The position numbers and the translations under genes were made by a program. Shown here in pieces: positions 4,657 through 31,369 of a stretch of 47,207 nt of DNA. Every line of letters begins with the position of its first letter. Position 1 is the stretch's first letter. This stretch comes from Capsulimonadaceae bacterium. GTDB lineage: Bacteria > Armatimonadota > Armatimonadia > Armatimonadales > Capsulimonadaceae. Under the pieces are notes generated by a model that saw only the letters and a list, made by a program, of their open reading frames with translations, had not been told where the DNA came from and did no database searches. Location: positions 1-47,207 of the forward strand of contig JARLGU010000038.1 of the NCBI GenBank assembly GCA_031292625.1, in the 5' to 3' direction.

Positions 4657-6618
4657 ATGAGTACTCTTCCAGCAGCCGATCCTTCCCTGGCCTCTGCGCC
4701 GGCTCCGAGCCCGGTATCGCGTACCCCCGCGTTCCGGAGTTGGCTTGTCGCGGCATTCGGTCTGCCGCTGACGTTTGCGAGTTTCCTGATGGTGATGAAC
4801 CTTGAGGAAATCCAGCAGATCGGCATGCCGACCGGGATCGCGATCTACTACCATGTTGTGATGCTGTTCGCTGTGCTCGTCCTGCTGAACGGCCTCGTCT
4901 CCCGCCGGTCAGGCGGGCGGCTGTTCTTATCGCGCCCGGAAATGCTGTGCGTGTATTCGATGATGAATATCGGCACGTGCTTTGCGTGTTGGGAGGCTCT
5001 GGGCACCTTGATCCCGGCGATTGCCTATCCATCGTACATCTTCGCGTCGCGTCCAAGCGAGTCCTGGCTGGGGCCAGTTATCGCTGCTTTGCCGTCCTGG
5101 GCGGTCGTAAAAGATCCCGATGCCGCGCGCGCGGTGTTTCAGGGCGGGGAGTGGAGCGCGATTTGGCGAGGGTGGCTTGTTCCGCTGCTTGCCTGGGCAT
5201 CGCTGCTTAGCGCCTTGTTCGTCATGTTCCTGGCGCTTACCCGCATGCTCTGGGAATCGTGGGCGCATCATGAGCACCTTTCGTTTCCGCTGACGGCGTT
5301 GCCGCTCGAAATGACCCGGACGGACGCGTCCCTCTGGCGATCGAGGCTGTTCTGGTCGACATCGTTGACGATGTTTGGGTTTGACATCGTCAACGGCCTT
5401 CACCAGATAGCGCCGTCGTTCCCCACGCTCAACATCAAGGTGATCTGGGCGAATACCAGTCCGGTGACGCCTGGCTGGGCGGCTGTCGGAAGCCTTCCGT
5501 TGACATTCCATCCGCTTATGATCGGCATAGGGCTTTTGCTCCGGACGGATCTGCTCTTTTCGACGTGGTTTTTCTATTTGCTTGGCAAGGCGCAAATCTA
5601 CTTTGCGGGAATGATGGCCGCCTCGCACGGTTCGCCGTACGTCTTTCTCGACAATACGCCCGGATTGCTGGCTCAAAATTTCGGCGCGATCATCGTCCTG
5701 GGCGTCAGCCTTCTCTGGAATGCGCGACGCATGCTAAGCTCTCGCCTCGACGCGGCTCGCGACGGGAACCGTGAAGCCCGTGCCGACTTTGCGATTCTCG
5801 CGGGCGGCGTCATCGTCCTGACCGCCGCACTGACGGCGCTTGGTCTATCCGCATGGCTCGCCGTGCTTTCGGTGGCGATTGTTCTACTGCTCGCCGTGTT
5901 CGTCTCCCGCCTGAGGGCCGAGCTTGGCCTTCCCGTGCACAATCTGCAGTTCATGGGACCGGACGGGCCGCTGACCGCGCTATTTAACGGGCACGGTTTG
6001 ACGCAACAGACGCAGAACGCGTTCGGAGCGTTCTACGCGGTGACGCGTTCGCAGCAAGGGCACGCGATGCCGCATTTGATGGAATCGGCCTACATGACCG
6101 ACCGGGCACAGGGGCCCGTTTCGAGCACATGGAAGATCCTGGCGATCACCGGGATACTGGCGGCGTTTGCGGGGCCTTGGATCGTGTTGCGCCTCTTGTC
6201 GCAACACGGCCTCGAAGCCGTTGGATACAATGCGTCGGTTAGCGCGGGCGGCTGGGTGACGGTGAAGTCGTACCTGATGGGGCATCACCTGCCGGACACG
6301 GACGCCATACGTTCCATGGCGGGCGGCGCGGGTGTGACGTTGGCGCTGTTGGCGCTCTCTCGCGCCTGGGTATCCAGTCCGTTCCACCCCGTCGGCTACG
6401 CGATTTGCGGAAGCTGGGGGACGGGCATGGTTTGGATGCCGTTCCTGATCGCGTGGGCGGCAAAATCGCTGGTCTTGCGATATGGCGGGGGAAAGGCCTA
6501 CGGCGGGCTGTCGATGTTCGCGATCGGCCTCATTTTCGGCGAGTTCGCGGCTGGGCTGTTTTGGACGCTCGTGTCGTCGCTAACCGGCGTGCAGTGTTAC
6601 CAAATATGGCTGTTCTAG
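4657..6618 (+). CDS. Polytopic membrane protein, DUF6785/DUF6784-like
   Basis: A 653-residue integral membrane protein with roughly twelve or more hydrophobic segments, for example around residues 27-48, 64-82, 163-195, 288-320 and 386-412. Length and sequence style (MLCVYSMMNIGTCFACWEAL near residue 90; LPVHNLQFMGPDGPLTALFN near 428) recall a large family of uncharacterised membrane proteins annotated DUF6785/DUF6784, frequent in Planctomycetes and Armatimonadota. AAGGAG at 4647-4652 supports the ATG. It is first in a two-gene unit with the SGNH lipoprotein and has its own operator-bearing promoter. Transport of oligosaccharides or involvement in envelope polysaccharide is inference; no transporter signature was recognised. 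The family assignment is from memory of its general pattern, not from a search. Confidence 0.7.
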   Translation: MSTLPAADPSLASAPAPSPVSRTPAFRSWLVAAFGLPLTFASFLMVMNLEEIQQIGMPTGIAIYYHVVMLFAVLVLLNGLVSRRSGGRLFLSRPEMLCVYSMMNIGTCFACWEALGTLIPAIAYPSYIFASRPSESWLGPVIAALPSWAVVKDPDAARAVFQGGEWSAIWRGWLVPLLAWASLLSALFVMFLALTRMLWESWAHHEHLSFPLTALPLEMTRTDASLWRSRLFWSTSLTMFGFDIVNGLHQIAPSFPTLNIKVIWANTSPVTPGWAAVGSLPLTFHPLMIGIGLLLRTDLLFSTWFFYLLGKAQIYFAGMMAASHGSPYVFLDNTPGLLAQNFGAIIVLGVSLLWNARRMLSSRLDAARDGNREARADFAILAGGVIVLTAALTALGLSAWLAVLSVAIVLLLAVFVSRLRAELGLPVHNLQFMGPDGPLTALFNGHGLTQQTQNAFGAFYAVTRSQQGHAMPHLMESAYMTDRAQGPVSSTWKILAITGILAAFAGPWIVLRLLSQHGLEAVGYNASVSAGGWVTVKSYLMGHHLPDTDAIRSMAGGAGVTLALLALSRAWVSSPFHPVGYAICGSWGTGMVWMPFLIAWAAKSLVLRYGGGKAYGGLSMFAIGLIFGEFAAGLFWTLVSSLTGVQCYQIWLF

Positions 6619-28439: not shown

Positions 28440-28790
<351 letters not shown>

Positions 28791-28833
28791 CGAGTGAACG
28801 ATGTCAGGCACAAGCCTGATAATTAACCTCCAT

Positions 28834-28867
28834 CCCCCTTCCCGAGTCTTGGGAAGGGGATTTTTTT
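28834..28867 (+). terminator. Intrinsic terminator of amt-glnK
   Basis: CCCCTTCCC (28835-28843) pairs with GGGAAGGGG (28851-28859) across a 7-base loop and is followed by A and seven T residues (28861-28867). This is the clearest rho-independent terminator in the window. Confidence 0.93.
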
Positions 28868-29194
28868 GCAGCTACATACTTGGTACAGCGCGTATCAATT
28901 GAGGTGCGCGCTTATTGTTTTGTGTGACGAAAAGTGGTGCTAATTTGACACTTGTTACTTGGTCGAATTTATTCAAATGTTTCAAATGTTTAGAGAAAAC
29001 ATTTTTGAGTGTGATTATTGAAACTGTTTTTAGCAATTATTTTGCAAGAGTTGTGGCATCTTTGTGAACACAGCAGGGATGGTTTGCGCGGCGGCTATAG
29101 CGTTGGCTCCCGGTGAAGCATGGCACTGCGGGACCCCACGCAAATGGCGCGAAAAAATTCTTTCTTGTCTCGAAGAATATATATGCATTCGTCA
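28868..29194. other. AT-rich gene-free interval with direct and inverted repeats
   Basis: This roughly 330-bp interval is visibly more AT-rich than its surroundings. TTCAAATGT is repeated in tandem at 28972-28989. AAATGTTT (28984-28991) and AAACATTT (28997-29004) form an 8-bp inverted repeat. TTGACA at 28945 may begin an extra promoter. Composition and repeats suggest the edge of an acquired segment that continues to about 31370. Confidence 0.5.
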
Positions 29195-29222
29195 TTGACT
29201 CCCGGTGATATCCAGGTATAAT
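29195..29222 (+). promoter_or_regulatory. Promoter of the 126-residue unknown gene
   Basis: TTGACT at 29195-29200, a 16-bp spacer and a perfect TATAAT at 29217-29222. Predicted transcription starts near 29229, 26 bases before the GTG at 29255. Confidence 0.7.
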
Positions 29223-29254
29223 CCGAGTGTAATAGACGAGCAGGGGGACGACTT

Positions 29255-29635
29255 GTGCTAAGACTTGATAAGCTACAGAAACATACCGGCGTCGGGCGTT
29301 CCTATGTAACCAGGATTAGCCTTAGTCCGAGAGGGCTAATTAGTATCACAAACGGGGCAGTCCAACGATATGGTCTCCTAGATAAAGAATGGGCGGAACT
29401 GTATTATGACAGCGAAGATAGGATCGTCGCTCTCAAGCCGCTCGTAGCAAAGACCGACGACGCGCTGAAGTTGCGCAAGCGAGACACGGGTGCGTACGTA
29501 GCCGCGCAAAGTTTTGTTGGGTGTTTTCAGATAGTCCTGACCAAAACAACCAGCTACGATCTAAAGATCGATACTGAGAGTGGACTTCTGTACTTTGAAC
29601 TGGATAAGGGTAGAGAGCGAAAGGCGAAACTGTAG
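29255..29635 (+). CDS. Unrecognised 126-residue protein
   Basis: A small soluble protein with no signal peptide or membrane segment. The GTG start follows AGGGGG (29242-29247) by 7 bases and a near-consensus promoter. The N-terminal half (SYVTRISLSPRGLISITNGA, VQRYGLLDKEWAELYYDSED) reads as short beta strands. It loosely resembles an uncharacterised family in which a strand-rich repeat is followed by LRKRDTGAYVAAQSF. The C-terminal half has a Lys-rich tail (KGRERKAKL). I cannot assign a function; a small nucleic-acid-associated or phage-derived protein is possible. It stands alone in an AT-rich accessory segment and is followed by a dense run of stem-loops. Confidence 0.7.
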   Translation: MLRLDKLQKHTGVGRSYVTRISLSPRGLISITNGAVQRYGLLDKEWAELYYDSEDRIVALKPLVAKTDDALKLRKRDTGAYVAAQSFVGCFQIVLTKTTSYDLKIDTESGLLYFELDKGRERKAKL

Positions 29636-29645
29636 CTTATGCAGA

Positions 29646-29940
29646 TTGGGCCGAACCACGAATATCAAGTTGTGCTGTAGGACATCGTAGTTCGGCCAAC
29701 AGCTATGCCGGAGCTGTCAGACTCCGGCAGAAGGACCGGCGGAAAGATTAGACTTTAGCCAATCCTGTGCTTAGGACACACAAGGATTATACCCGGATAG
29801 GGTAGCTTGGGTCAATATTTCCCGCCGGGCCGCAGACAAACTGCGGCAGGAGGGCGCTAAACATGGTGCTTGCGAGATGCAGGTCGCCGTGAGGCGCTTA
29901 GGCGGATGGTGTGGGGCAAGCGATTGCTGGGCCCCACACC
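29646..29940 (+). ncRNA. Candidate structured RNA: consecutive stem-loops
   Basis: No gene is supported in 29636-30005, but complementary segments are unusually dense. TTGG-g-CCGAAC (29646-29656) pairs with GTTCGGCCAA (29690-29699). GCCGGAG (29707-29713) pairs with CTCCGGC (29722-29728). GGACCGGCGGAAA (29733-29745) pairs with TTTCCCGCCGGGCC (29818-29831), enclosing smaller hairpins. CCGCAG (29830-29835) pairs with CTGCGG (29841-29846), sharing two bases with the previous stem. GGTGTGGGGC (29908-29917) pairs with GCCCCACACC (29931-29940). Strand and extent are inferred from the flanking plus-strand genes. No known riboswitch or RNA family was recognised. Confidence 0.4.
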
Positions 29941-30005
29941 CCACCTGTCCTACTCCTCCTAACATCGCTGACATTACCGGAGCGATGCTCCAAGAGGAAA
30001 CGACA

Positions 30006-30188
30006 ATGCCAAAAACGGCACCTTTCTATTCCGTCAACGAGGCTTCCAAGCCTGCTGAGAAGCGTGTTCATCACGACAACAGCGCATGTGCGACTGGCCG
30101 GGAAATCCCGGTCAATGAGCGCCGATCCGGCACCAACGGTTACCGCTTGTGCCTCGATTGCAAAGAGCGTGATGACAAGGGCCAGTAG
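30006..30188 (+). CDS. Small 60-residue Cys/His protein, zinc-ribbon-like
   Basis: A short basic protein that starts MPKTAPFYSVNEASKPAEKR and contains RVHHDNSACATGREIP, then SGTNGYRLCLDCKERD. One HH...C cluster and one CxxC motif could bind a metal ion together. GAGGAAA just upstream of the ATG gives a usable Shine-Dalgarno. The pattern 'VHHDNxAC...GYRLCxDCK' resembles small uncharacterised proteins scattered among bacteria; no function is known to me. It follows a run of stem-loops and is itself followed by a hairpin and a strong terminator, so it is probably expressed. Confidence 0.65.
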   Translation: MPKTAPFYSVNEASKPAEKRVHHDNSACATGREIPVNERRSGTNGYRLCLDCKERDDKGQ

Positions 30189-30310
30189 AGCCTTACCCTT
30201 CCATGAGGGAACACCCGGATTGCAAAAGGTGAGTTCCCGATCGGGTCCGACCGGCTCCTTATTGTTAATCGAGTAGAAGCGCCGTAAGTGAGTTGGTCGG
30301 AGGTCATCTT

Positions 30311-30341
30311 GAAGGGCTACGTATAAAGCATGTAGCCCTTC
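30311..30341 (+). terminator. Hairpin downstream of the small Cys/His gene
   Basis: GAAGGGCTAC (30311-30320) pairs perfectly with GTAGCCCTTC (30332-30341) over an 11-base loop. No T-run follows, so termination is uncertain. A less regular GGGAAC...GTTCCC pairing lies at about 30205-30236 between the gene and this hairpin. Confidence 0.5.
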
Positions 30342-30376
30342 AGCTATGCCGCCCCTGAATCGCCTGTCGATTCACG

Positions 30377-30417
30377 GAAGCAGCCTACCGGCGCTCGGTA
30401 GGCTGCTTCTTTGTGTG
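30377..30417 (+). terminator. Strong hairpin terminator after the accessory RNA/gene region
   Basis: GAAGCAGCCTACCG (30377-30390) pairs perfectly with its complement at 30396-30409 over a 5-base loop, followed by TTTGTGTG. A 14-bp perfect stem with a T-rich tail fits an intrinsic terminator, and may also block read-through from the opposing transposase remnant. Confidence 0.75.
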
Positions 30418-30454
30418 TCTCTTCGCCTTGCGCCGCACTCGCATCCAGTCCTCG

Positions 30455-31369
30455 CTTCGCCCGTCAATGTCTTATTGGTGAGGCGCTTGCCAGACGTGGA
30501 CGATGCGGCATATAGGAACCCGCCCGTGTCGTCCGTCTTACGATGGCTAAAGCAAAAAGACCTGTTCGGTAAGGCAAGCATCAATATGCGGCACATCAAA
30601 TGAAATGTATGTGCTTTTAAGCGTACGCTTGAGAAGCGACCAGAGGTTCTCAAGTTCGCTAGTATGACACAATCTCGTGCACATATTCTACAGCGCGATT
30701 TACTTTCTCATGTACGTGCTCAGCCTCTTACCCTCCGTGCGCACCGTGCGTATCCGTGTGCATGGCGGAGACCGGTGCTATGTTCTTCCGAACTTACGGC
30801 TATTTTGTGACGTTGGTGTTGTTCCGTACAGTCTATTCGACAGCGCCGCCGCCTCGATCAAGAACCCCCATAACGATAGCCTTCCCGACGCACCTACCAC
30901 CAGCGTTCACCCTCATGTTCCTACGCTTATTGACCTCCTTGCCGCCGATGTAGGTCTCGTCAGCTTCGACGATACCTGTCATATTCTCCATGCTGTCATT
31001 GTCCAGTGCGTAGCGGATGCGACGGAGAACGAACCAAGGCGTTTTCTGAGTAAGCCCGATCGCTCGATGGATCCCCATGGAGCTGGCGCCGTTCTCGCAG
31101 TTAGTTAGCATCCAAATCGCCCCGAGCCACTTATCTAGGCCGATCGGTGTGTCTTCTATGATCGTTCCCGCTTCGGGGGTAAACTGCTTGCGGAACGATC
31201 GACATTGCCAAAGCGGACGCATATTGATCCTTGTAACTTCCTTGCTCTCACAATGCGGGCAGGTAACGCCATCGGCCCATCGCATGCGGAGCATACGCTG
31301 AACGCACTTTTCCAGATCGCCGTAATAGAGAGCAGCTTCTTGAAGGGTATTAGACATTCCGTTTTCCAT
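30455..31369 (-). pseudogene. Degenerate IS1595-family (ISXO2-like) transposase
   Basis: The first 178 codons (31369 to 30833) encode a zinc-ribbon-like start (CPHCESKEV; WQCRSFRKQF, where the usual second CxxC cysteine is replaced by Phe). Then comes the family helix segment GTIIEDTPIGLDKWLGAIWM and the catalytic start GIVEADETYIGGKEVNKRRN, before a premature stop. Pieces of the C-terminus persist out of frame: ELENLWSLLKRTLKSTYISF on the minus strand near 30660-30600, and GKRLTNKTLTG near 30495-30463. At least one frameshift and several stops separate them, so transposition in cis is impossible. Terminal inverted repeats were not recognised. It is a mobile-element scar at the edge of the AT-rich accessory region. 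Confidence 0.88.

Follow-up and report, generated by a model that had tools for sequence, protein, structure and literature searches.

The window, by which we mean the whole 47,207-nt stretch of Capsulimonadaceae DNA analysed here, contains two small genes set among strongly folding sequence. In order, the locus consists of gene A (29255-29635), a hairpin block, gene B (30006-30188), a second hairpin block and a terminator (30376-30410). Upstream of gene A are an ammonium transporter, a PII protein and a terminator-like hairpin (28835-28859). Downstream, a decayed IS1595-type transposase lies on the minus strand (30833-31369), with broken frames further on; taken from 30560 to 31369, it has relatives of about 70 per cent identity elsewhere in the genome. 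The features referred to below are as follows.

29195-29222, plus strand: predicted gene A promoter, TTGACT-16-TATAAT, 11 of 12 consensus matches
29209-29224, plus strand: shared element, copy 1 (TATCCAGGTATAATCC), covering the gene A -10 box
29255-29635, plus strand: gene A, encoding a 126-aa protein of an undescribed family, its predicted fold weakly like MraZ/B3 (homologues and structure model)
29649-29779, minus strand: candidate antisense RNA of about 130 nt with three stem-loops (minus-strand z -5.9; inferred ends)
29766-29732, 29729-29706 and 29697-29649, minus strand: stem-loops of the candidate antisense RNA, from single-sequence folds
29784-29799, minus strand: shared element, copy 2 (TATCCGGGTATAATCC), at the minus-strand promoter
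29786-29815, minus strand: predicted antisense promoter, TTGACC-18-TATAAT, 11 of 12 consensus matches
29829-30005, plus strand: putative structured leader or intercistronic region before gene B
29829-29847, 29851-29903, 29906-29942 and 29963-29987, plus strand: hairpins of this leader
30006-30188, plus strand: gene B, encoding a Cys/His protein of 60 aa with a weak DksA/TraR zinc-finger likeness (sub-threshold NCBIfam match, E 3.5e-4)
30190-30417, plus strand: structured tail behind gene B
30376-30410, plus strand: strong intrinsic terminator, 16-pair stem with a T-rich tail (terminator scanner)

Folding and copy number of the hairpin block

An earlier note on this DNA had described a run of stem-loops between two small genes. 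All of the stems that it named were recovered, including the nested outer one: 29649-29661/29685-29697 (13 nt, 92 per cent paired), 29706-29713/29722-29729 (8 nt, 100 per cent), the nested outer stem 29733-29745/29819-29831 (13 nt, 85 per cent), 29829-29835/29841-29847 (7 nt, 100 per cent), 29908-29917/29931-29940 (10 nt, 100 per cent), 30246-30257/30290-30301 (12 nt, 83 per cent), 30310-30320/30332-30342 (11 nt, 100 per cent), and 30377-30390/30396-30409 (14 nt, 100 per cent). The scanner also recovered the strong terminator said to close the block. The stems were thus located correctly, but the 60-residue gene B sits inside the interval.

The hairpins of 29636-30417 are real and lie above chance. 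The comparison with shuffled sequence that the note had proposed gives a folding z of -11.0 for the entire 782-nt block (n = 20 dinucleotide shuffles). Against dinucleotide shuffles, the left block (29636-29945) and the tail (30190-30417) score -7.2 and -6.9, and 200-nt pieces of the window have a mean z of -0.3 (sd 1.0). The claim that no known RNA family fits held up: nothing in the window matched Rfam 15 at gathering thresholds, and a permissive search of 29000-30800 returned weak, chance-level matches only, far below gathering scores.

The hairpin block is present as a single copy in its own 5.8-Mb genome, of which the window makes up one contig. DNA similarity searches of 101 relatives, a plasmid collection and the genome itself found the block and one 33-nt match only. 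That match (30246-30278, 88 per cent identity) is to a NuoE-like gene region in genome G011 (L014 3233-3265), antisense here, and is probably due to chance. REP/BIME-type repeats were rejected because they require many dispersed genome copies, and an origin of the block as repeat-derived DNA, one of the options first raised, is unlikely for a single-copy sequence. We also looked by eye for integron attC sites, introns and rolling-circle nick sites and found no core motif; Rfam gave no intron matches.

Strand preference and the predicted minus-strand promoter

Both strands of the block fold strongly, and the strand that folds better changes within it. Over 29640-29779 the minus-strand RNA reaches a folding energy of -61.9, against -47.5 for the plus strand (strand difference z -3.8 vs shuffles). 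To the right the preference is reversed, with -70.0 for plus and -57.0 for minus over 29829-29945 (z +2.5), and -104.1 and -92.6, respectively, over 30190-30417 (z +1.9). The switch, from minus left of about 29780 to plus right of 29829, coincides with the predicted minus-strand promoter at 29815-29786. Our first model, in which outer stems closed in a chain on the plus strand, was dropped when the minus promoter and the strand preference appeared.

It is improbable that the hairpin run is one RNA; it is probably a minus-strand RNA on the left and a plus-strand leader and tail on the right. The structured RNA first proposed is well supported, but probably as more than one molecule, since the strand of better fold flips inside the block. 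The right part looks like a plus-strand leader and tail of gene B, and the left third like a separate minus-strand RNA with a promoter of its own. A regulatory role for the structured RNA or RNAs is plausible. Inside a plus-strand hairpin before gene B (29848-29892), an SD-like AGGAGG is followed by a nine-codon frame from 29863 (MVLARCRSP), which could be a leader peptide.

Promoters were scored against a sigma70-type consensus, which may not be that of Armatimonadota. In 200 shuffles of the 450 nt 3' of gene A, no site scored as high as the minus-strand promoter. Among the 14 best promoter-like sites of the window, it alone leads into strongly folding sequence (z -6.1; others from -2.3 to +1.7), and it is itself buried in the nested hairpin. 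The candidate antisense RNA drawn from it stops 13 nt short of the gene A stop codon, its three-stem topology being a by-eye judgement on single-sequence folds. Behind its last hairpin there is no T-rich run or clear terminator, and the scanner reported no minus-strand terminator from 28780 to 30800. As far as sequence can tell, the candidate has one attribute of a cis-antisense RNA of the OOP or SR6 type, namely a predicted promoter of its own on the opposite strand, convergent with gene A.

The -10 regions of the gene A promoter and the minus-strand promoter are alike over 22 nt at 86 per cent. The core TATCCRGGTATAATCC of the shared 16-bp element was derived from these two promoter sites; the 5.8-Mb genome holds no third site at zero or one mismatch and two further sites at two mismatches. 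Because the element covers both promoters, their sequences suggest joint control; that the controller is the gene A protein is a guess. A 14-nt near-direct repeat also occurs here, at 29103-29116 (TTGGCTCCCGGTGA) and 29195-29208 (TTGACTCCCGGTGA), 92 nt apart, and the second copy contains the -35 box of the gene A promoter.

The gene A and gene B products

The gene A protein is charged, with a confident, globular and soluble predicted structure (pLDDT 87). The best structural matches of the model are MraZ/AbrB-like transcription factors, over 84-86 residues at Z 4.6-4.7 (MraZ, 4.7), followed by plant B3 domains at Z 4.0; all are weak fold matches to solved structures. Gene A differs from the MraZ/AbrB-like factors in lacking a Pfam match, and the likeness stays below Z 5 at 6-8 per cent identity. 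Foldseek found no PDB match at E 0.001. Judged from the model, DNA binding by the gene A product is plausible. Searches of Pfam (to E 0.1 with the window protein and to E 1 with four homologues), PHROG and PADLOC gave no match. Among viral proteins it comes closest to gp105 of Lactococcus phage KSY1 (E 3.4e-7), a protein without known function. An RNA antitoxin, one of the first suggestions, is not supported: a type I toxin-antitoxin system requires a small hydrophobic toxin, and the product of the 29255 gene is a charged, globular protein of 126 residues.

Gene A is found in 8 of 291 genomes of the phylum, including its own; a further copy, on a virus-classed contig that also encodes a phage integrase, makes nine in total. 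An alignment-based search of genome contigs found four Armatimonadota gene A loci; tblastn against a phage collection and a single-protein search of genome contigs gave no match. Public records of its relatives are Armatimonadetes MAGs, and relatives occur in the window's own family and phylum.

Gene B scores 20.9 bits against NF008243, where the cut-off is 96, which places it outside DksA/TraR by NCBIfam. Other members of this small Cys/His family occur in three other genomes of the phylum and on five plasmids (actinobacterial and Mesorhizobium). We rejected gene B as the owner of the hairpins: the flanks of its relatives elsewhere are unstructured or weakly structured, and the structure is therefore no property of gene B. 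On a Dietzia plasmid (L021 3001-3811), the gene B domain begins a gene annotated as a GIY-YIG nuclease.

Predicted promoters and hairpins beside gene A relatives

Four related loci (L012, L011, L030 and L031) have a significant promoter facing back at gene A (0, 2, 0 and 0 of 200 shuffles, respectively), which in L031 is a perfect TTGACA-17-TATAAT. The 130 nt behind these promoters fold with z -6.6 (L012), -7.8 (L011), -4.9 (L030) and -4.3 (L031). A comparable promoter in L013 lies beyond a second gene, with following sequence at z -4.7, and nothing significant was found within 450 nt 3' of gene A in L034, L029 or L010. On the minus strand, a T-rich run follows the last hairpin in L011, L012 and L031. 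Of these loci, L011 and L012 fold better as minus-strand RNA, a preference not seen in L030 or L031. Because strong plus-strand sites also follow gene A in L011, L030 and L031, two opposed transcripts may be made there.

The last hairpin is common to L011, L030 and L031. Across these three sequences, on which the covariation rests, its loop is conserved and both bases differ in 7 of the 10 stem pairs, a pattern reached by 0 of 500 shuffles. In L012 a similar loop sits within a longer hairpin. The covarying homologues that the note had asked for thus exist for one hairpin at three related loci, but not for the window copy itself. The window RNA has position, direction and a three-stem fold in common with its relatives and lacks the conserved loop, and the hairpin model R1 did not find it. 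Across the 291 genomes, R1 gave two strong matches, both at gene A loci, and otherwise weak, mostly coding ones; minus-strand matches in L034 and L013 were set aside as possible chance. We also discarded a conserved peptide behind the GCCAA loop after comparing frames by eye, as L011 has no start codon in that frame.

The restriction of strong R1 matches to gene A, together with a loop kept as its stem changes, as for a recognised loop, would fit a minus-strand RNA that is the partner of the gene A protein or acts in trans, with the protein binding the folded RNA and the RNA titrating or guiding the protein. We think this rather improbable: the proteins that the gene A model weakly resembles bind DNA, the window copy has no such loop, and the gene A copies in L029 and L010 come without such an RNA.

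The genes behind the RNA vary and include DUF1883 with or without a CAP12/TIR protein, HNH, DUF2188 and gene B. In L012 (5938-7535), a DUF1883 gene and then a CAP12/TIR-domain protein stand behind the gene A relative, a pair that is possible defence cargo. In L034, a strong minus-strand promoter at 6272 is convergent with a DUF3800 gene and leads into a short hairpin resembling a terminator; this may be another antisense RNA and was not counted as the same one. L011 carries a clear c-di-AMP riboswitch (4924-5055, Armatimonadetes MAG, E 1.2e-18).

With gene A patchy, placed before variable cargo and once beside a phage integrase, and with an IS1595 relic adjoining, the palindromes could also act as DNA, serving a mobile island as a site for recombination, replication or protein binding. 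We regard this as very unlikely. The strand preference of the fold implies G-U pairs and therefore RNA, the block has no other genome copies, and the related loci have no conserved DNA core in common with the window copy.

A plainer account is that the hairpins are UTR, stabilising or termination structures of two ordinary genes, and that the promoter-like sequence on the minus strand is fortuitous or gives rise to antisense transcripts of no importance. The strong plus-strand terminator that closes the block, the strong folding on both strands and the single large hairpin downstream of gene A in L029 all favour this account. It does not readily explain why the promoter is significant and recurs at other gene A loci, why the strand preference reverses at that promoter, why a covarying hairpin keeps its loop or why a 16-bp element is shared, and we consider it unlikely, if still worth taking seriously.

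Discussion

Our preferred reading, which we put forward tentatively, is that the left hairpins may belong to a cis-encoded antisense RNA of about 130 nt convergent with gene A, alongside a plus-strand gene A-gene B mRNA with structured intercistronic and tail regions. Our caution has four reasons: the transcript is a prediction, the window shows no terminator for the RNA, homologues are few and the promoter consensus may not hold in this phylum. The promoter, strand and loop patterns were also found after other ideas (closing stems, a gene B leader, R1) had been tried on the same loci, and their p-values are exploratory. The strongest safeguard here is recurrence at independent gene A loci, together with the promoter control on 14 window sites.

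What was computed is the folding, the match to a promoter consensus, the preference for one strand, the element common to both promoters, and the reappearance of a promoter with structured sequence next to relatives of gene A. From these results we infer the following mechanism. Gene A would be transcribed rightwards from 29195-29222, and its mRNA probably continues across the hairpins and gene B as far as the terminator (30376-30410), because there is no clear terminator between the two genes. The small RNA would start near 29779 on the minus strand, from the sigma70-type promoter, and head toward the 3' end of gene A, giving the two transcripts about 130 nt of full complementarity. It would most likely act in cis, by pairing with the gene A-gene B mRNA or by transcriptional collision, and so limit gene A mRNA and read-through into gene B. 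Through the 16-bp element both promoters would be controlled together, possibly by the gene A protein.

By analogy, the nearest known logics are those of lambda OOP/cII and SR6/yonT-yoyJ. OOP RNA of phage lambda overlaps cII by 52 bases and ends at a hairpin terminator (PMC5869508), whereas the window RNA as drawn ends before the gene A stop codon with no clear terminator, and CII and gene A have no detected relation. SR6, from a type I toxin-antitoxin system of the Bacillus subtilis prophage SPbeta, is an antisense RNA of about 100 nt between yonT and yoyJ, which form one operon; it overlaps the 3' end of the first transcript, yonT, a gene without a typical terminator (PMC5848175). The candidate RNA likewise lies between two genes of a predicted operon, the first without a clear terminator. 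However, YonT is a 58-aa toxin and gene A encodes 126 aa with a confident soluble fold, and the window RNA as predicted does not overlap gene B itself.

A bolder extension, which we think doubtful, would make gene A and the convergent RNA the two parts, protein and RNA, of a new regulatory module in Armatimonadota that sits on mobile islands, in front of the variable cargo described above. The gene A protein would then bind the RNA, both promoters or all of these, and so set cargo expression.

More generally, what looks like a single structured RNA can be resolved into opposed transcripts by asking which strand folds better and where the promoter lies. If our preferred reading is true, an antisense RNA absent from Rfam would be tied to an undescribed protein family, in a phylum whose RNA biology is little studied, and would be accompanied by a private promoter element and, in relatives, by a covarying hairpin.
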